From an uncultured SAR86 cluster bacterium (GTDB lineage Bacteria; Pseudomonadota; Gammaproteobacteria; Magnimaribacterales; D2472), in assembly GCA_902520725.1 (NCBI GenBank), contig CABYPB010000008.1, forward strand, positions 1 through 55,532: a stretch of DNA of 55,532 nucleotides, given 5' to 3'. Within the stretch, counting starts at the first letter, position 1. Every line of letters begins with the position of its first letter. The notes beneath the pieces were generated by a model that made no database searches, had not been told where the DNA came from, and saw only the letters and a program-made list of their open reading frames with translations. Below are positions 22,987 through 41,280 of the stretch, piece by piece. Made by a program: the position numbers and the translations under genes.

Positions 22987-24223
22987 CTTGCTTAAAATTA
23001 TACTCACTTAGTTTTTCTAGATTTAAATTAACTAAATTTTTAAATTCCTTCATCTGACTTGGGGTGACTGATTTCGCAGAGGGCAGCTCTACTTTTACAG
23101 GATCTGTTCTTATTTTTCCTTGCCAAAACTCAAAATGTAAGTGAGTTCCTGTTGCCTGTCCTGAATCACCAACATATGCAATTATTTCACCTTGTTTTAC
23201 TTTACTCCCAACTTTTGTTTTTGTATTAAACCTTTCAAGATGAGCATATAAAGTTTTTATATTTCCGCCATGTTTTATTTCAACTGTTCTTCCATAACCA
23301 CTTTTATAACCAACAAAAGAAATTACTCCGTCTCCAGAGGCCATCACAGGTGTATTTCTCTTCGCAGCATAATCAACACCATTATGCGCTTTTATTTTAT
23401 GCAGAATAGGATGCATTCTATTTGGATTAAAATGAGAACTTATATATGCAAAATCTAGAGGAGCTCTTAAGAATGCCTTCTTTACATTATCGCCATTTTG
23501 ATTAAAGTACTGTTTACCTTGATTTTTATCAAAAAACCTTTGAGCAATATATCTATTATTTTTATTAATGAATTCAGCAAAAACTATATCTCCACTAGAA
23601 ATCTTCTTACCTTGTGAATAATCAGCTTCAAAAATTACAGAAAATTTATCTCCATCTCTTACATCAAAAATAAAATCAACATCCCAACCAAAAATATATG
23701 CAAAGTCCATAATAATGCTATCTGGAATACCAACATCTAAAGCATTTTTATAGAAAGAGGTACTTATTTCACCTTGTTTAAATGAAATAATATTTTCTAT
23801 TTCTTTTTTAACTTTCTCTACCGTAACCTCTTCAGAAACTCGAATCACTATTGAATTTATCTCGTCTTTAATGATTTCAATATTATTCAAGTTTTCGCCA
23901 AGATAATTAAATTCCATAATATCTCCAGGCTTTATACCCGATAAAATATTATTCTTATCAAAATTAAATATCTTGTAGGCTGTATTTAAAGGAACATTTT
24001 TTTCTTCAAATATTATTGAGAGACTTTCTCCTTTTTGAACTTTATGTATTTCTTTATTTTTTAAATTTGGAAGTGTATTAGCAAGATCCTTAGAAATGCT
24101 AATTTCTTCTATTGGATCTGGCTTATTGAAATTTGAATCTACATAGATTAACAAGATAGCAAAGATTGAAATCAAGAAAACAATTATTACTAATTTAGCA
24201 GGAGTTTTTTTAAACCCAATCAT
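22979..24223 (-). CDS. M23 (LytM) peptidoglycan peptidase, MepM-like
   Basis: Inner-membrane-anchored murein peptidase or regulator of 414 residues. One N-terminal transmembrane segment (about 10-28) is followed by an OapA/LysM-like domain (VQKGESLSIIFEEKNVP, about 62-78). The C-terminal M23 domain has zinc-ligand motifs HPILHKIKAHNGVDYAA and HLHFEFWQG, with the intermediate HGGNIKTLYAHLERF. All catalytic positions appear intact, so it is probably an active DD-endopeptidase rather than an EnvC-type activator. The M23-anmK order is common in gammaproteobacteria, with tyrS upstream; here putA sits between tyrS and this gene. Confidence 0.88.
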   Translation of the reverse strand: MIGFKKTPAKLVIIVFLISIFAILLIYVDSNFNKPDPIEEISISKDLANTLPNLKNKEIHKVQKGESLSIIFEEKNVPLNTAYKIFNFDKNNILSGIKPGDIMEFNYLGENLNNIEIIKDEINSIVIRVSEEVTVEKVKKEIENIISFKQGEISTSFYKNALDVGIPDSIIMDFAYIFGWDVDFIFDVRDGDKFSVIFEADYSQGKKISSGDIVFAEFINKNNRYIAQRFFDKNQGKQYFNQNGDNVKKAFLRAPLDFAYISSHFNPNRMHPILHKIKAHNGVDYAAKRNTPVMASGDGVISFVGYKSGYGRTVEIKHGGNIKTLYAHLERFNTKTKVGSKVKQGEIIAYVGDSGQATGTHLHFEFWQGKIRTDPVKVELPSAKSVTPSQMKEFKNLVNLNLEKLSEYNFKQDE

Positions 24224-27200
24224 AAATCTTCTTGAAGATTCAACAGTTCAGTATTGCCACCAAAGGCTACAGAATTTTTTGAAATGACCTTTTCATTTAA
24301 AAATTGCAATAAATAGTTAGGGCCTCCTGCTTTAAAACCGCTGCCAGAAAGACCAACTCCTCCAAAAGGTTGCGATCCAACTACGGCACCAACCATATCT
24401 CTATTAATATATATATTTCCAATATTTGATTGTTTTCCAAAATAGTCTGCTCTAGATTCTATTCTTGAGTGAATACCCATCGTTAAACCATATCCAGTTT
24501 TGTTAATATCATTAATTAACTTGTCAGTATTATTAGATTTATATTTGAGTAAGTGAAGAATTGGACCAAATTGTTCATTTTTAATATCTGATATTTTATT
24601 AATTGTTATTAGTGTTGGTGAAATATACTTATCATTAGTACTTTTAGTTGTTTGAAATACATCAAATTTCTGTTCTCTACATTTATCAATATATTTATTA
24701 AGATTAACGATTGATTGCTTAGTAATTATTGGCCCAATATCTGTGTCAAAATTATTTGGATCTCCAATTTTTTGAGTAATAATATTGCCTTTTATCATCT
24801 CGACAAGTTCTTCATAAATTTCTTCTTGAATGCAAAGCACTCTCAAAGCAGAGCACCTTTGACCTGCGCTATCAAAGGCCGACCTAATAACATCATCAGT
24901 TACTTGTTCTAGTAATGCACTTGAATCAACAAGCATAGAATTAATTCCACCTGTCTCAGCAATCAATGGGACTATCTGATTTTGATTTTCAATAAGATTT
25001 GTTTGAATTTTTTTTGCTGTTGGAAGTGATCCTGTAAAAGCAACCCCTTGAAGTGAATTTACTTTAGTCAACATATCACCGTACAAACCATCACCAAGAA
25101 TAAGCTCTAGCGCACTTAAAGGAATTCCACATTCATGAAATTTACTAACAACAAGATATCCAAGTATAGATGTATGTTCAGATGGTTTAGCTATAACTTT
25201 ATTACCGCAAGAGAGTGCTGCTGATATTTGTCCAATAAGGATGGCTACTGGAAAATTCCATGGACTAATACATAAGAATCTTCCTTTTGGACTATATAAG
25301 ATTTTATTCTCTTCTCCAGTCGGTCCGTCAAGTTCTCTTTCTTCTATTATCTTTAAAGCTTGTTCTGCATAGTATCGAAGAAAATCTACTCCCTCTCTTA
25401 TTTCATCCACTGCATTTTGAATAGTTTTACCAGCTTCATTTATAAGATAAAAAATTAACTCGTAGGGATCTTTTTCAATAGAGTCAGCAACCCGATTTAA
25501 AATTTCAGTTCTTTTTTTAACATTAATCTTTTCCCATTCACTTGAATTATTTTTTTCAAGACAATCTTTGATATCTTTTGGGTCATCAAAGTTTATGGTA
25601 CCCATATCAATGTTTGAAGAAATTGAGGATACTTTAAATTTTCTCTCAGCAGATTTATTTCTTCCAACATAAATAGATTCAGCATTTATTTTTTTGTCTT
25701 TGAATTTTGCTAATTTCACTGATAGATTTTCTAAATTTTGTTTTTCAGAGAGATCTATTCCAGAAGAATTTAGTCTTGTACCAAAAATATTTTTAGGCAA
25801 TAAAATTTCCTTTTTTTCACTCTTCATTCTTATATAAGGATTTTGAGCTAACCATTTTGAGTCTGTTTCTGGATCAAGCAACCTATTTATAAAAGAGCTA
25901 TTGGCACCATTCTCTAGAAGTCTTCTTACTAAATATGGCAATAAGTCTTTATAGTTGCCTATTGGAGCATATACAGAAGGAGATTGTTCTAAATTTAGAA
26001 TATTTGAAGCGCTTTTATATAAAAGCTCACCCATGCCGAATAAACGTTGAAATTCATATTTACAATTTTGGCCAAGGTAGTTGATTGATGAAATAGTGTG
26101 AGCATTGTGCGTTGCAAACTTTGGATAGATTTTTTTGTTTTCTAAGATTCTCTTTGAACAAGCTAGATAGACAATATCTGTAATAGATTTTTTAGAGAAA
26201 ACCGGGTAGCCATCATATCCCGATACTTGTGCATGTTTAATTTCATAGTCCCAATAAGCACCCTTAACAAGCCTTAGGTGCATCTCGGCTCTTTTATCTA
26301 ATATATCGTTTAACCAATTAATTGCATCAAATGCTCTCTTACCATAAGCCTGCAGAGCAATTCCAAATTTATTCCAATTTTTAATTTTTTTATCAAATGC
26401 AAGCTGTTCAATAATATGGAGACTCAATGAAAGTCTATCTTGTTCTTCTGCATCAATTGTTATCTCAACATCCTTTGAATATGCGTGATGTACTAATTCT
26501 TTTAATCGCGGAATTAGCTCCAAATTTACATCACTAATTTTTCTCATTTCATATCTTGGATGTAAGGCTGATATTTTTATGGAAACTCCATGCGATAGAT
26601 TTTTTACAAGATTAATTTTTGCTACCTCATCAATAGCATTCAAATAAGATTCAAAATAATTCTCAGCTTGAAAAGGAGTCCTTGCAGCTTCACCCAACAT
26701 ATCAAATGAATAAGCTTCTTTTTCAAGCCCAGGAAGTTTTTGAATATCTTTAAAATTTTTACCTATTACAAATTCTTGACTTAGAATCTGCATGGCAGCC
26801 AAAACTGCATTTCTAATTGGCATTTCTCCAGATTTTGATATTAAGTTGGATAAGAAACTATTTGGATCTTTAGACCATTCGCTTGGAGTGGCAACGACTT
26901 TGCCTGCAAGTAACAAACCCCAAGTAGAAGCATTTACAAAAATACTATCGGCTTTATTTAGATGATCAATCCATTTACCCTCTGAGAGCTTTTCAGAAAT
27001 TATCAAATCTCTTGTTTTTTTATCAGGTATTCTTAACACAGACTCTGCAAGACACATTAAGGCAACACCTTCCTTATTATCTAATCCATATTCGTTAAGA
27101 AAAGCATCAAGCATAGTGCGATCTTTTTTATCTTCTCTGCAAAGGTCAATAATAGATTTAGCATTTTGAGATATCGATACTTCCTCTAAAAACTTTGTTT

Positions 27201-27267
27201 CATTTGATATTTTTGATAAAAGCTGAGTTTCCGATACAAATTTATTATTTATATTAAGCATAGCCAT
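24220..27267 (-). CDS. putA: Bifunctional proline dehydrogenase / P5C dehydrogenase
   Basis: Oxidises proline to glutamate in two steps, feeding electrons to quinone (FAD domain) and NAD+. At 1015 residues it is a short-type PutA. The proline dehydrogenase barrel covers about 150-470 (LRLVKGAYWDYEIKHAQ, IATHNAH-type ATHNAHT, and RLLENGANSSFINR). The aldehyde dehydrogenase domain covers about 510-1000, with general base Glu in AETGGINS and catalytic Cys about 804 in SAGQRCSALRV. The N-terminal ribbon-helix-helix DNA-binding domain of E. coli PutA (1320 residues) is absent, so this copy is not its own repressor. It overlaps the M23 gene by 4 bp and is divergent from tyrS (72-bp gap). Confidence 0.96.
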   Translation of the reverse strand: MAMLNINNKFVSETQLLSKISNETKFLEEVSISQNAKSIIDLCREDKKDRTMLDAFLNEYGLDNKEGVALMCLAESVLRIPDKKTRDLIISEKLSEGKWIDHLNKADSIFVNASTWGLLLAGKVVATPSEWSKDPNSFLSNLISKSGEMPIRNAVLAAMQILSQEFVIGKNFKDIQKLPGLEKEAYSFDMLGEAARTPFQAENYFESYLNAIDEVAKINLVKNLSHGVSIKISALHPRYEMRKISDVNLELIPRLKELVHHAYSKDVEITIDAEEQDRLSLSLHIIEQLAFDKKIKNWNKFGIALQAYGKRAFDAINWLNDILDKRAEMHLRLVKGAYWDYEIKHAQVSGYDGYPVFSKKSITDIVYLACSKRILENKKIYPKFATHNAHTISSINYLGQNCKYEFQRLFGMGELLYKSASNILNLEQSPSVYAPIGNYKDLLPYLVRRLLENGANSSFINRLLDPETDSKWLAQNPYIRMKSEKKEILLPKNIFGTRLNSSGIDLSEKQNLENLSVKLAKFKDKKINAESIYVGRNKSAERKFKVSSISSNIDMGTINFDDPKDIKDCLEKNNSSEWEKINVKKRTEILNRVADSIEKDPYELIFYLINEAGKTIQNAVDEIREGVDFLRYYAEQALKIIEERELDGPTGEENKILYSPKGRFLCISPWNFPVAILIGQISAALSCGNKVIAKPSEHTSILGYLVVSKFHECGIPLSALELILGDGLYGDMLTKVNSLQGVAFTGSLPTAKKIQTNLIENQNQIVPLIAETGGINSMLVDSSALLEQVTDDVIRSAFDSAGQRCSALRVLCIQEEIYEELVEMIKGNIITQKIGDPNNFDTDIGPIITKQSIVNLNKYIDKCREQKFDVFQTTKSTNDKYISPTLITINKISDIKNEQFGPILHLLKYKSNNTDKLINDINKTGYGLTMGIHSRIESRADYFGKQSNIGNIYINRDMVGAVVGSQPFGGVGLSGSGFKAGGPNYLLQFLNEKVISKNSVAFGGNTELLNLQEDL

Positions 27268-34878: not shown

Positions 34879-35698
34879 AATTAACGAAGATCTTAAAAAA
34901 TCTAAGATAAATTTTGAAATAATAAATAAAATCAGAAGTGGCATTACAGCAAATACGTATTTAGCAAAATATAAAAAAAATAAATCAATTATAAAAGTAT
35001 TCAAAAAACAAAAATACAAATTAATAACCAACCAATTTCAATCCAATTTTATTAAAGAGCAATTAGTTAATAAAAAATTATTTCCAGAAGTTACCTATCT
35101 TAATAGAAAAGAGGGGATTTTAATTTATAAATATTTTGAAGAAAATAGTATTAAATTGAGTAGAAGCAAGACAATAGAATTACTTGGAATTTCTCTTACT
35201 AAATTGCACTCAATTAAATCAAATAAAAATATTAAAACATTTGAACATCAAATAACTGCATATAATAAAATTTTAAAATCTAATAAGAATACTAAACTTA
35301 TAAAAAAAGCAAATTATCTCCTTAAAAAAATTGAGTCATATGAAAACGGAGAGAAAGTTTTTTCGCATAATGATCTGAATCCCACAAATATATTATTTAG
35401 TAGAGAAGATATACGCTTTATAGATTTTGAGTATTCTAGTATGAATAGCAGATTCTGTGATATTTCTAGAATAGTAGAATCTTTTAATATTAATGACGAG
35501 GAAATTAATGTTTTATTAAGTTCTTATGGTATTAAAACTAATTCAAGTGTTTTGGAAATTATTAAAGATTGGAGTCTAATGAATTTATATTTAGATCTAA
35601 TTTGGGCTTATGTTATGAATAAAGTGCAAAAAGGTTCAATTAAAAACAATTATATAAATGGATTAGAGCTTAAATTAGACAATAAAGGCAATGAATAA
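34871..35698 (+). CDS. Aminoglycoside/choline-kinase-fold small-molecule kinase, putative thiamin kinase
   Basis: A 275-residue protein with the APH/ThiK fold. The Brenner motif is FSHNDLNPTNILF (catalytic Asp about 174, Asn about 179), and the metal-binding motif is IRFIDFEYSSMN. The N-lobe has the glycine-poor loop IRSGITANTYLAKY and Lys-Val at KSIIKVFKK. The start is set at the ATG 34871, overlapping pnuT by 8 bp; a longer frame from 34832 is less likely. From context it should phosphorylate imported thiamin (like E. coli ThiK/YcfN), making thiamin monophosphate that ThiL would need to finish. Choline or another alcohol is an alternative. It is extremely Lys/Asn/Ile-rich. Confidence 0.7.
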   Translation: MNEINEDLKKSKINFEIINKIRSGITANTYLAKYKKNKSIIKVFKKQKYKLITNQFQSNFIKEQLVNKKLFPEVTYLNRKEGILIYKYFEENSIKLSRSKTIELLGISLTKLHSIKSNKNIKTFEHQITAYNKILKSNKNTKLIKKANYLLKKIESYENGEKVFSHNDLNPTNILFSREDIRFIDFEYSSMNSRFCDISRIVESFNINDEEINVLLSSYGIKTNSSVLEIIKDWSLMNLYLDLIWAYVMNKVQKGSIKNNYINGLELKLDNKGNE

Positions 35699-36163
35699 AG
35701 TAAGAATCAATATAACTATTGGTATAAATGCATCAATTTTCATAATAATCTCCTCTTTTTTTGGAATTTTAGGTATTCTAATGGAAAATAAAGTGAAATT
35801 ACTATCATTACTGTAACCAAGATCATCTAAATCTGTGTCATCATCTATGGGTACATGCATATATTCGCTTTTTGATAATTTATTAATAGAATTAGTTTCA
35901 AATTCTTGATCTTTAGTTAAATCAGCTGTATTTTCTTGATGTAGAGCAATATCTTTGTTGTTATTTGTAGTCATTTCCTCAATCTCATACAGTATTTTAT
36001 CCCTTTTCGCTCTGGCTACATGAATATCAGTAGTTTTTAATGATTTTTTGATAAAATCTTTACCATATATAGCTGCAGCTTCTTTCGACAGTCTTTTCTG
36101 TATAAAATAAATATCTTTATTCTTACCTCTTAATATAAGATATTTATCTTTAGTTGTACTCAT
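35675..36163 (-). CDS. Putative membrane-tethered protein with integrase-type N-terminal domain
   Basis: A 162-residue protein without a recognised full-length family. Residues about 7-62 resemble the N-terminal domain of proteobacterial tyrosine recombinases: YLILRGKNKDIYFIQKRL, then IYGKDFIKKSLKTTD, then ARAKRDKILYEIEEM. The catalytic recombinase domain is absent. Residues about 65-125 are an acidic, low-complexity linker (DDDTDLDDLGY). The C-terminus (FIPIVILILTLFIAFIV) is a single membrane segment at the very end. Five copies of ATGAGTACA lie at and upstream of the start, the last copy containing the start codon. No Shine-Dalgarno is visible. Its 3' end overlaps the kinase gene by 24 bp. 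Confidence 0.6.
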   Translation of the reverse strand: MSTTKDKYLILRGKNKDIYFIQKRLSKEAAAIYGKDFIKKSLKTTDIHVARAKRDKILYEIEEMTTNNNKDIALHQENTADLTKDQEFETNSINKLSKSEYMHVPIDDDTDLDDLGYSNDSNFTLFSIRIPKIPKKEEIIMKIDAFIPIVILILTLFIAFIV

Positions 36164-36255
36164 ATGTACTCATAATACTAAATTATTTTCTTTGTATTTG
36201 CAAATATATGTACTCATATTTTGCTGTTTGTACTCATATAAACCATTGTACTCAT
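36155..36255 (-). repeat. Five direct copies of the 9-mer ATGAGTACA
   Basis: On the minus strand ATGAGTACA occurs exactly at 36155-36163, 36165-36173, 36209-36217, 36229-36237 and 36247-36255 (plus-strand TGTACTCAT). Start-to-start distances are 10, 44, 20 and 18 bp. The copy nearest the gene contains its start codon (Met-Ser-Thr). Five perfect copies in 101 bp are far beyond chance. Candidates are protein-binding sites, possibly for the adjacent integrase-domain protein, or relics of tandem duplication of its start region. Confidence 0.85.
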
Positions 36256-36396: not shown

Positions 36397-37593
36397 ATGA
36401 AAATATTATGTATACTCTATGACGATCCAATCAACGGTATGCCAAATCAATACGCTCGAGATGATTTGCCAAAACTAGATAAATATCCTGATGGTATGAC
36501 TTTGCCTTCACCTAGTTCAGTTGATTTTACCCCTGGTGAACTTTTGGGATGTGTTTCTGGCGAATTGGGGTTAAGAAAGTTTCTAGAAGATGCTGGGCAT
36601 ACTCTTGTTGTAACCTCAGATAAAGATGGAGATGGTTGTGAGGCTGACAAAGAACTTGTTGATTCAGATATTGTAATTTCTCAACCATTCTTTCCATATT
36701 ACTTAACTAGAGAAAAAATGGAATCTGCTCCAAATTTAAAAATGGCTATTACTGCAGGCATTGGTTCTGATCATGTAGATTTGCAAGCCGCAATGGACAA
36801 CAATGTAGATGTAGTTGAGGTTACTTATTGTAATTCGAGATCTGTTGCCGAGCACATTGTAATGATGATTCTTTCAATGGTTAGAGACTATCACAATCAG
36901 CATAGAATAGTAAAAGAAGGTGGATGGAATATTGCTGACGCTGTTCAAAGATCATATGACGTTGAGGGTATGCATGTTGGTACGGTAGCCGCAGGTAGAA
37001 TTGGTATTGATATGCTAAGAAAAATGAAGCCTTTTGATGTTCATCTTCATTATTTTGATATTCATAAACTTTCAGATGAAGTAGAGGCAGAACTAAATCT
37101 TACTTATCATGATTCTGTAGAATCTTTGGTGGCCGTTTGTGATGTAGTTAATATAAGTTGTCCACTTCATCCCAAAACTGAACACTTATTTAATGACGAG
37201 ATGATTAATAAGATGAAACGTGGTGCATATATTGTTAATACTGCTCGTGGAAAAATTTGTGACAAGGATGCTATCGCTCGAGGATTGGAGTCAGGCCAAT
37301 TAAGTGGTTACGCTGGAGATGTTTGGTTCCCACAACCCGCTCCAAACGATCATGTCTGGAGAACTATGCCAAATCATGGAATGACACCTCATACATCAGG
37401 AACATCCCTTTCTGCTCAAGCCAGATATGCTGCAGGTGTAAGGGAAATACTCGAATGTTTCTTTGATAATAAACCCATAAGAGAGCCATATTTGATCGTT
37501 CAAAATGGTGATCTAGCTGGCATGGGAGCTCATTCATATACTAAGGGCACTGCCACTGATGGTTCTGAAGAGGCTGCAAATTATAAAAAGTAG
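36397..37593 (+). CDS. fdh: NAD-dependent formate dehydrogenase (metal-free D-2-hydroxyacid dehydrogenase type)
   Basis: Oxidises formate to CO2 with reduction of NAD+; cytoplasmic homodimer without molybdenum. The 398-residue chain keeps the residue numbering of the Pseudomonas sp. 101 enzyme: Asn146 in YCNSRS, Arg284 in NTARGK, Asp308 and Gln313 in GDVWFPQPAP, and His332 in PHTSGTSL. The C-terminus EPYLIVQNGDLAGMGAHSY is also diagnostic. The dinucleotide loop is VAAGRIG. It has a strong AAGGGG ribosome site, and its codons look more GC-rich than those of flanking genes, consistent with high expression or transfer. It is followed by a hairpin terminator. Confidence 0.97.
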   Translation: MKILCILYDDPINGMPNQYARDDLPKLDKYPDGMTLPSPSSVDFTPGELLGCVSGELGLRKFLEDAGHTLVVTSDKDGDGCEADKELVDSDIVISQPFFPYYLTREKMESAPNLKMAITAGIGSDHVDLQAAMDNNVDVVEVTYCNSRSVAEHIVMMILSMVRDYHNQHRIVKEGGWNIADAVQRSYDVEGMHVGTVAAGRIGIDMLRKMKPFDVHLHYFDIHKLSDEVEAELNLTYHDSVESLVAVCDVVNISCPLHPKTEHLFNDEMINKMKRGAYIVNTARGKICDKDAIARGLESGQLSGYAGDVWFPQPAPNDHVWRTMPNHGMTPHTSGTSLSAQARYAAGVREILECFFDNKPIREPYLIVQNGDLAGMGAHSYTKGTATDGSEEAANYKK

Positions 37594-40461: not shown

Positions 40462-41190
40462 TTATTCTGAGTCGCTTACTGCAGCTACATATATAGCTAA
40501 ACCAAATGCGATTTTGTTAATAAAATCAGCAAGGTTGTATATTGTATTTGCTCCGGCCATATCTCCGCCACCCATTGCACCAAGCCAATATCCAATTGGA
40601 TAAATAGCCCAACCAAAAGTAACAATCAATCTGATTGTTCCAAATGCGCTTTGTGCAGCAGCATTTCCACTTGAAGCATTTAATTTTCCAGCTTCGCCAG
40701 AGAATACTTCCCAGATGATGTATAACCATGCAATTGTTGCAATAACACCACAGACTAATGCGTTATAGCCAGTTTCACCCATGAAACCAACAACAAGCAT
40801 TACTAAAGAAGCGCCTAAGAGCTTATAGAATACGCTTGAGCTAACATTAGTACACACTTTAAGAATTAAGTAGAACTCAATAATTTGAAGTGGAACTGTG
40901 ATTAACCAGTCAATGTATCTGTATACAGTTGGTGATGTTCCAGTTTCGACCCAAACACCTCTCATATATAGATAGTGCCAAAACGCCACACCAGTAACTA
41001 AACCAGCAACTGATAATGATGTTTTCCATTTGCCATGAACTCTGTCTCTTTCAACAAAGAAAAATACAGTAGCAGCAAGCATAGCAGCTGTTACCAGCCA
41101 GAATGTTACTCCTGTTATATCACTTGTTTGCAAGTCAGCAGCAAATGCAGGTAGTGCAAGAACACTAACCATTGTTAATAAAAATTTCAT
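40462..41190 (-). CDS. Proteorhodopsin, blue-absorbing type (light-driven proton pump)
   Basis: Seven-helix retinal protein of 242 residues. After a cleavable signal (MKFLLTMVSVLALPAFA), helix C carries RYIDWLITVPLQIIEFYLIL: Asp94 (proton acceptor, PR Asp97), Glu105 (donor, PR Glu108) and Gln102 at the tuning position (PR 105; Gln gives blue, Leu gives green). His72 (PR His75) is in FWHYLYMRG, and the Schiff-base Lys226 is in DFINKIAFGLA. A longer frame from 41256 is rejected, because AAGGAG (41197-41202) lies 6 nt before this ATG. No retinal-synthesis gene (crt, blh) is nearby, so retinal comes from elsewhere. Confidence 0.98.
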   Translation of the reverse strand: MKFLLTMVSVLALPAFAADLQTSDITGVTFWLVTAAMLAATVFFFVERDRVHGKWKTSLSVAGLVTGVAFWHYLYMRGVWVETGTSPTVYRYIDWLITVPLQIIEFYLILKVCTNVSSSVFYKLLGASLVMLVVGFMGETGYNALVCGVIATIAWLYIIWEVFSGEAGKLNASSGNAAAQSAFGTIRLIVTFGWAIYPIGYWLGAMGGGDMAGANTIYNLADFINKIAFGLAIYVAAVSDSE

Positions 41191-41213
41191 ATATAACTCC
41201 TTATAAGTAAGTA

Positions 41214-41229
41214 GGAGTATAATTACTCC
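41214..41229 (-). promoter_or_regulatory. Hairpin in the proteorhodopsin 5' leader
   Basis: GGAGTA and TACTCC form a perfect 6-bp stem with a 4-nt A/T loop, located between the predicted transcription start and the ribosome site (AAGGAG, 41197-41202). It could stabilise the mRNA or compete with the ribosome site, since both contain GGAG. No T-run follows, so it is not a terminator. Function is inference. Confidence 0.6.
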
Positions 41230-41251
41230 CCCCTGAAATATACAAGTGCCT

Positions 41252-41280
41252 ATCATACAAAAAACTTAAAAATGTATCAA
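41252..41280 (-). promoter_or_regulatory. Sigma70-type promoter of proteorhodopsin
   Basis: On the minus strand TTGATA (41275-41280, -35, 5 of 6) and TATGAT (41252-41257, -10, 5 of 6) are separated by exactly 17 bp. The predicted start near 41245 gives a leader of about 55 nt. This is the best promoter match I found in the window, in line with strong, possibly constitutive expression. Confidence 0.85.

Follow-up and report, generated by a model that had tools for sequence, protein, structure and literature searches.

A sequence of nine bases is repeated five times, on one strand, at the start of a short gene of an uncultured SAR86 bacterium. The question that this locus raises is if the repeats are bound by the product of the gene beside which they stand and, if so, to what effect. 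The initial annotation, made from the sequence alone, had described the repeats as lying at and upstream of an integrase-like gene, and had suggested that a recombinase-type N-domain and the repeats form one unit, either an autoregulator or a tethering site. The analysis of the whole stretch of 55,532 nucleotides (hereafter the window) and of related genomes leads us to favour, by a modest margin, an operator array bound by the product of its own gene and mediating negative autoregulation, with both binding and repression inferred.

Results

Repeats at the start of the gene encoding P0001

Exact copies of ATGAGTACA were found on the minus strand at positions 36155, 36165, 36209, 36229 and 36247, with start-to-start distances of 10, 44, 20 and 18 bp, as the annotation had stated. 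Site 1 (36155..36163, minus strand) coincides with codons 1-3 of the gene (Met-Ser-Thr; ATG AGT ACA), overlapping the start codon, and is the only one of the five copies within the coding sequence, as sites 2-5 lie outside the gene. Site 2 (36165..36173, minus strand) is located 10 bp upstream of site 1 and is followed by a site-free gap (36174..36208, minus strand) which, from an alignment of 38 orthologues at the ATG, is the probable place of the promoter, a position that is inferred. Beyond this gap, sites 3 (36209..36217), 4 (36229..36237) and 5 (36247..36255) are further exact copies of ATGAGTACA on the minus strand. A sixth site, inverted and overlooked by the annotation, was detected inside the gene (TGGGTACA, 35848..35855, plus strand), where Val-Pro-Ile of a linker is encoded as GTA CCC ATA. 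The described position at and upstream of the gene is correct, but the sites also extend into the coding sequence.

Dinucleotide shuffling of the window gave an expected count of 0.33 for ATGAGTACA, and five copies were reached in none of 100 shuffles. In the assembly of 1,001,528 bases (78.5% complete), the 9-mer was present seven times, five of them at this locus, and a reversed control pattern was present six times. Frequent occurrence of the 9-mer elsewhere in the genome would have refuted the annotation, but it is rare outside the locus.

The source genome belongs to SAR86, a marine group of very high abundance, and the contigs with orthologues are titled SAR86 cluster bacterium or Gammaproteobacteria bacterium. 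A bacteriorhodopsin-like gene is also encoded in the window (40462-41256, minus strand).

P0001 combines a DUF6538-like domain with a hydrophobic tail

The gene (35675..36163, minus strand) encodes P0001, a protein of 162 aa with an N-domain of the arm-binding type, a variable linker and a C-terminal hydrophobic helix. The strongly conserved N-domain (codons 1-70; 35954..36163, minus strand) resembles DUF6538, a domain of the integrase arm-binding type, and matched PF20172 with an E value of 1.9e-5 and 24.7 bits, below the curated gathering cut-off of 27 bits. A Pfam scan of P0001 with E values up to 0.1 gave only DUF6538 and a weak match to Tox-MPTase4, without the catalytic Phage_integrase domain. 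P0001 is not an integrase, as the recombinase part is missing, and the term integrase-like is valid only for the N-domain. No sensor part was seen in the protein, which consists only of a domain of the DNA-binder type, the linker and the hydrophobic helix.

The C-terminal helix (codons 136-161; 35681..35758, minus strand) is predicted to be a membrane anchor from a structure model and hydropathy; membrane location has not been shown. The AlphaFold model of the full protein contains a helix at 136-161, with pLDDT values of 87-94 over residues 141-162, and in 36 of 38 orthologues the 19-mer of highest hydrophobicity reaches to within 0-1 residue of the C-terminus. This full model was poor in the N-domain, and its comparison with the PDB was unusable.

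When the N-domain was modelled separately, AlphaFold gave a beta-beta-alpha-beta-alpha fold with a pLDDT of 84. Of the 40 PDB chains listed for this model, 3rmp (Z 4.9) and 3jtz (Z 4.7) ranked first and second (rmsd 2.5 over 53 residues). Both are arm-type-binding domains of integrases and weak matches (Z <5); ribosomal chains came next, within Z 1 of the top. Foldseek alone found no match to the N-domain model with an E value of 0.001 or better, and a PDB sequence search yielded no relative that was convincing. As part of the best overall explanation, we regard the N-domain, with a slight preference, as related to the arm-binding domain of tyrosine integrases but standing alone; the fold match is at low Z.

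An orthologue of P0001 was found in 30 of 34 genomes of the same genus, including all six of those at least 90% complete. The linker varies in both length and sequence among orthologues, and the N-domain showed a median dN/dS of 0.108 (67 of 703 orthologue pairs, those with pS 0.05-0.5).

The array is conserved with the gene

For the comparison of upstream regions, 63 records were collapsed into 38 distinct orthologous genes, every one of which carried 3-6 sites within -200..+9. These upstream sites amount to 116, compared to a mean of 0.23 and a maximum of 2 in 200 mononucleotide shuffles. Their consensus was TGRGTACAWW, mostly preceded by A, rather than the exact ATGAGTACA; here TG.GTACA had been set by the search, and the remaining positions were observed. 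The base before TG was A in 87% of the 116 sites, whereas that after TG was mostly A (53%) or G (38%), and what is conserved is therefore not ATG AGT.

In the orthologues, the array ends on the start codon (30 of the 34 genomes of the genus carry gene and array), and a tandem pair with sites 10-11 bp apart is found at the start codon in 33/38. The third site from the start lies at -51 to -92 in 34/38 and at -31 to -33 in the other four. The gap between the proximal pair and the next site leaves room for a promoter in most orthologues, but this promoter is inferred and could not be pinned down: the best -10 hexamers were scattered between -38 and -15 in the 38 orthologues.

Upstream of the array, the sequence changes between lineages while the array stays, as read by eye. 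Control of the divergent dehydrogenase gene (36397-37593) was considered and is disfavoured, because the flank beyond the constant array varies with the lineage. The locus fulfils what is expected of an autogenous repressor, namely sites of the cognate type at its own promoter region that are conserved with the gene. Repeats not conserved where the gene is present would also have spoken against the annotation, but a clustered pair was found in 30/30 gene-bearing genomes of the genus.

Sites within the coding sequence

A profile of 31 loci revealed coding-strand sites from about -135 to +1 and again from +200 to +510, the latter mostly inverted, and only 12 scattered matches to TGNGTACA in all other bins within 2.5 kb. 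Three of 34 loci were left out of this profile as their start was not found, but they were included in the codon analysis of the 38 genes. Most inverted intragenic sites read as Val-Pro-(Ile/Met/Thr), and the forward ones as Met-Ser/Gly-Thr or Tyr-Glu-Tyr.

In the 38 genes, Val-Pro was encoded as GTACCC in 31 of 35 cases, while CCC made up 5 of the 83 other proline codons. In 24 other ORFs of the window, GTACCC was used for none of 20 Val-Pro pairs, and CCC for 30 of 425 prolines. From codon 66 to the end, 50 intragenic sites were observed, compared to 1.85 +- 1.33 (maximum 6) in 500 synonymous resamplings that drew codons at the usage of the window. The orthologues are related, and these 50 sites are not independent events. 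The codon bias shows that the intragenic sites are kept by selection at the DNA level, which makes this a clean example of regulatory-type sites retained within coding DNA at the cost of using a rare codon.

Few clustered sites elsewhere in genomes of the genus

The clustered-pair pattern was found at 67 places in 34 genomes, 62 of them at the gene (counted from rows) and 5 elsewhere, and the reversed control at 28. Nearly all clustered pairs in the genus of the window lie at the P0001 gene. With so few pairs away from the gene and so many matches of the control, a regulon was rejected. The pattern ATGAGTACAW, counted singly, gave 190 places in the 34 genomes versus 145 for the reversed pattern, places at and away from arrays being taken together.

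Four genomes of the same genus lack the gene: no pair was found in three of them, and the fourth, G005, carries two, both within an unrelated coding repeat. The pairs of G005 (L074) were rejected as true sites, since a Trp-Val-Gln coding repeat mimics the motif pair by chance. In G008, a contig of 1.19 Mb contains the strict motif at 18 places, with a single cluster, at the gene, and the bare GGTACA at 278 places, with clusters of three per 600 bp at three other places.

Within the stretches examined, cumulative GC skew reached its minimum at position 27000 of the window and at 310 kb in G008, 514 kb in G026 and 246 kb in G032, 94-97 kb from dnaA in these three genomes.

The same domain and similar sites on other proteins

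When the order was searched with a profile, several genera proved to have the full protein, and the N-domain by itself was detected within longer proteins: a Rieske protein, a GltD/NfnB-like Fe-S flavoprotein and one true tyrosine integrase. Further hosts of the domain are IscS, an NfnA-like protein and KorA. Pfam confirmation of the host is limited to L180, L188, L195, L196, L257, L239 and L281, and the rest were classed by sequence likeness. The DUF6538 score was above the cut-off for the Rieske fusion (27.9), two GltD-like proteins (29.2 and 35.9), the integrase (37.5), the NfnA-like protein (39.2) and KorA (35.6), whereas the IscS fusion L239 had no DUF6538 match at E 1e-5 and was linked through the domain-only profile (A2). 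With this A2 profile, the domain was found in 123 of 203 genomes of the order, one copy each except for two pieces of a broken gene in G125. Two intact copies were never found together in these 123 genomes, despite the differing hosts.

In a tree of the domain, clade A (GltD, IscS) was separated from clade B (membrane-tail, Rieske and integrase), each with a support of 100/100, and midpoint rooting placed the integrase at the base of clade B, with few columns and weak inner forks. Alignment A1 took in 22 of the 38 genes, and A3 left out four class-level rows. The site differs with the clade, being ARGGTACA in A and TGRGTACAWW in B.

Within clade B, the Rieske fusion of genus g3 (Pfam matches UCR_Fe-S_N and Rieske) has at least two TGNGTACA upstream in 9/9 loci, and the true tyrosine integrase of G082 has TGGGTACA and TAGGTACA upstream. 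For clade A, 40 of 72 genomes were fetched for locus counts (L195 and L196 were read additionally), with the domain on IscS in 12 and on GltD-like proteins in 28. GGTACA was present within 220 bp upstream in 40/40 of these loci, in both orientations and at a density of 13.2/kb, compared to 0.10/kb in the flanks and 0.99/kb in coding DNA.

The domain was also found in 43 of 396 genomes of another order, that of G376, of which 20 loci were read. All 20 showed GGTACA within 400 bp upstream (6.4 versus 0.41 per kb). For this order, Pfam identified the host of G376 as KorA and that of L281 as NfnA-like, the others being classed by likeness.

The domain comes with an array of GTACA-core sites in six kinds of host protein, and also in one integrase. 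It is likely that domain and sites form one portable unit, as inferred from co-occurrence without binding data. The proposal that the recombinase-type domain and the repeats belong together is supported, as the pairing recurs on five host proteins other than P0001 and on the integrase.

Elsewhere in the class, 17 DUF6538 genes were read, and no upstream array as clear was seen. A 7-mer was present 3-4 times within 250 bp upstream in eight of them and in none of the other nine, without testing against chance. The eight genes are L242, L244, L245, L249, L251, L254, L256 and L257, L256 being a stand-alone domain of 81 residues. As none of the 17 has an equally clear array, an integrase origin of the pairing rests on a single integrase. 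No relative was found when viral contigs were scanned with the A2 profile, and a phage collection gave four weak matches to the G082 integrase, none covering the N-domain. DUF6538 was named in no paper, and no report of this module of domain plus sites was found, as far as our literature search reached.

Association of clade A with iscS

Several of the hosts are Fe-S genes that are regulated through IscR in other bacteria. In family f2, 23 of the 35 domain-bearing loci were read; the domain was on IscS in 12, and in 11 on a GltD-like gene divergent from iscS with the array in between. A profile for Rrf2 (IscR-type) proteins gave no match in any of the 35 domain-bearing f2 genomes. In the domain-bearing genomes of family f3, Rrf2 was present in 25/25 and, judged by positions, each of the 25 has it directly divergent from the domain gene. 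At L240, L241, L195, L212-L218 and L235-L237, a GGTACA array stands between a GltD-like/KorA/KorB operon and the divergent iscS (f2) or iscR-iscS (f3).

Among 12 g5 genomes with the clade-A domain, Rrf2 was found in seven, on another contig than the domain gene, and the two g5 loci examined (L230, L233) had no iscS upstream. The g5 genomes show that the link with iscR does not hold for all clade-A genomes. The pattern in f2 and f3 is as expected of a transcriptional regulator filling the vacancy of IscR, a possibility that is inferred from incomplete genomes and one profile only.

Discussion

In the reading that we favour, the N-domain would bind TGRGTACAWW simultaneously in three places, namely upstream of the promoter, on the start codon and, in inverted orientation, within the gene, possibly with looping. 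Accumulation of the product would then shut down its own transcription, as for integrase genes. The C-terminal helix would anchor the repressor, and hence its own locus, to the inner membrane, making the window protein a putative membrane-anchored version acting on its own gene. In the relatives, the module would let a product of an operon control the Fe-S genes of that operon (iscS, kor/nfn, petA). The sign of the regulation is inferred, and without expression data activation through the sites is also possible. Self-repression alone would be useless to the cell, and this reading therefore lacks some further output. Nor does autoregulation alone account for the upkeep of this gene by streamlined cells.

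The main rival reading is a chromosome-to-membrane tether, in which the array would be a centromere-like anchor, the protein a clamp holding the locus at the inner membrane, and autoregulation a by-product of having the sites at the promoter, as in plasmid partition loci. A bolder form sees in P0001 a one-gene, motor-less anchor derived from an integrase arm-binding domain, the gene being its own centromere. Either form is conceivable and, if true, a tether would be a new way of fixing the chromosome to the membrane. In favour of it are the clustering of sites almost only at the P0001 locus, the sites within the gene on both strands, and a protein made of a DNA-binder, a linker and a hydrophobic helix with no sensor part seen; a tether would also explain the upkeep of a protein without other visible target. 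Rieske proteins, which are also hosts in clade B, are of a membrane-anchored kind, which is a further point for it. The locus lies 103-107 kb from dnaA in 10/10 genomes of the genus with both genes on one contig, as does the broken gene of G125, from another genus (107 kb), and in G008, G026, G032 and the window the cumulative GC skew of the stretch examined is lowest 9-10 kb from the gene. Against it, other genera differ in the distance to dnaA (on the other side, 22 kb in G117 and 36 kb in G111; 271 kb in G133 and 357 kb in G087). In G008 the skew minimum is part of a broad plateau; the search for it covered only 200 kb of G026 and G032 and 55 kb of the window, and no DnaA-box cluster was found at the minimum. 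In addition, the hosts of clade A are enzymes without a hydrophobic tail, yet they have the same kind of array.

Other explanations fare worse. That the sites belong to another regulator, the fused domain being incidental, is unlikely; there are no binding data, several hosts are Fe-S genes, and four TGNGTACA sites remain in G125 (L189) though the gene is broken by stops, but the array accompanies the domain on unlike hosts and in unlike neighbourhoods, the site sequence changes with the domain clade, and the sites persist in f2, in whose domain-bearing members no Rrf2 match was found (0/35). Moreover, a stop-ridden match in G134 has no TGNGTACA in the 10 kb around it. It is still less probable that the repeats are a relic, merely inherited from an integrated element that is now dead and of which they would be the attachment-site arms and int promoter. 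The domain does occur on integrases, and one integrase of the SAR86 family has the same kind of upstream site, but the low dN/dS of the N-domain, the selection on sites within coding DNA, and the maintenance of the sites across several genera with genomes of ~1 Mb all argue against a relic. An action on translation, through decoy start codons (ATG AGT ACA) or a signal in the leader RNA, can be all but discarded: every copy in the window contains ATG and the proximal pair straddles the true start, but the window spacings are mostly no multiples of three, the clade-A sites (GGTACA) have no start codon and lie in both orientations, and the intragenic copies are mostly inverted.

Between the autoregulator and the tethering site proposed in the initial annotation, the sequence does not decide, and negative autoregulation remains our preferred reading. 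A mobile-element-type DNA-binding domain could have served as a plug-in, with successive hosts and sites at each new promoter. In one family, this plug-in domain stands on or next to iscS where an IscR-type gene was not found. Such a module suggests a testable route by which streamlined ocean bacteria may have gained feedback control.

Among known systems, plasmid partition sites such as those of ParR/parC and StbA have iteron arrays in the promoter of the adaptor gene. The SAR86 locus is alike in that short direct repeats surround the promoter from which their presumed binder would be expressed, but it is chromosomal, the presumed binder has a hydrophobic tail, anchoring is hypothetical, and a motor gene was sought only among the scanned genes of the window. 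The isc operon under IscR (Rrf2) offers a second parallel, since in the 23 f2 loci the clade-A module lies on iscS or divergent from it, in genomes without an Rrf2 match; in contrast, the clade-A domain is unrelated to IscR, and the presumed regulator is fused to an enzyme.

In the trifunctional PutA, an added N-terminal DNA-binding domain makes the enzyme an autogenous repressor that can be membrane-associated (PMC5293562). A PutA-type gene is encoded in the window (24220-27267, minus strand), with matches to proline dehydrogenase, the family of its DNA-binding domain and aldehyde dehydrogenase. PutA resembles the domain-enzyme fusions in being an enzyme with an N-terminal DNA-binding domain (PMC5293562), but its domain is of the ribbon-helix-helix type, whereas SAR86 has a domain of the integrase arm-binding type, which six host proteins share and which in the window is joined to a bare hydrophobic tail.

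The integrase gene intS of KplE1 is negatively autoregulated, with arm-type sites that overlap the intS promoter, and none of the single arm-site mutations led to derepression (PMC2951348). Both systems would share an N-domain that binds arm sites, sites over the own promoter and a product that represses its gene, as reported for intS (PMC2951348) and inferred for the window protein. Unlike IntS, the window protein lacks a recombinase domain, has a hydrophobic tail and has sites in its coding sequence, and its type of domain also rides on metabolic enzymes.
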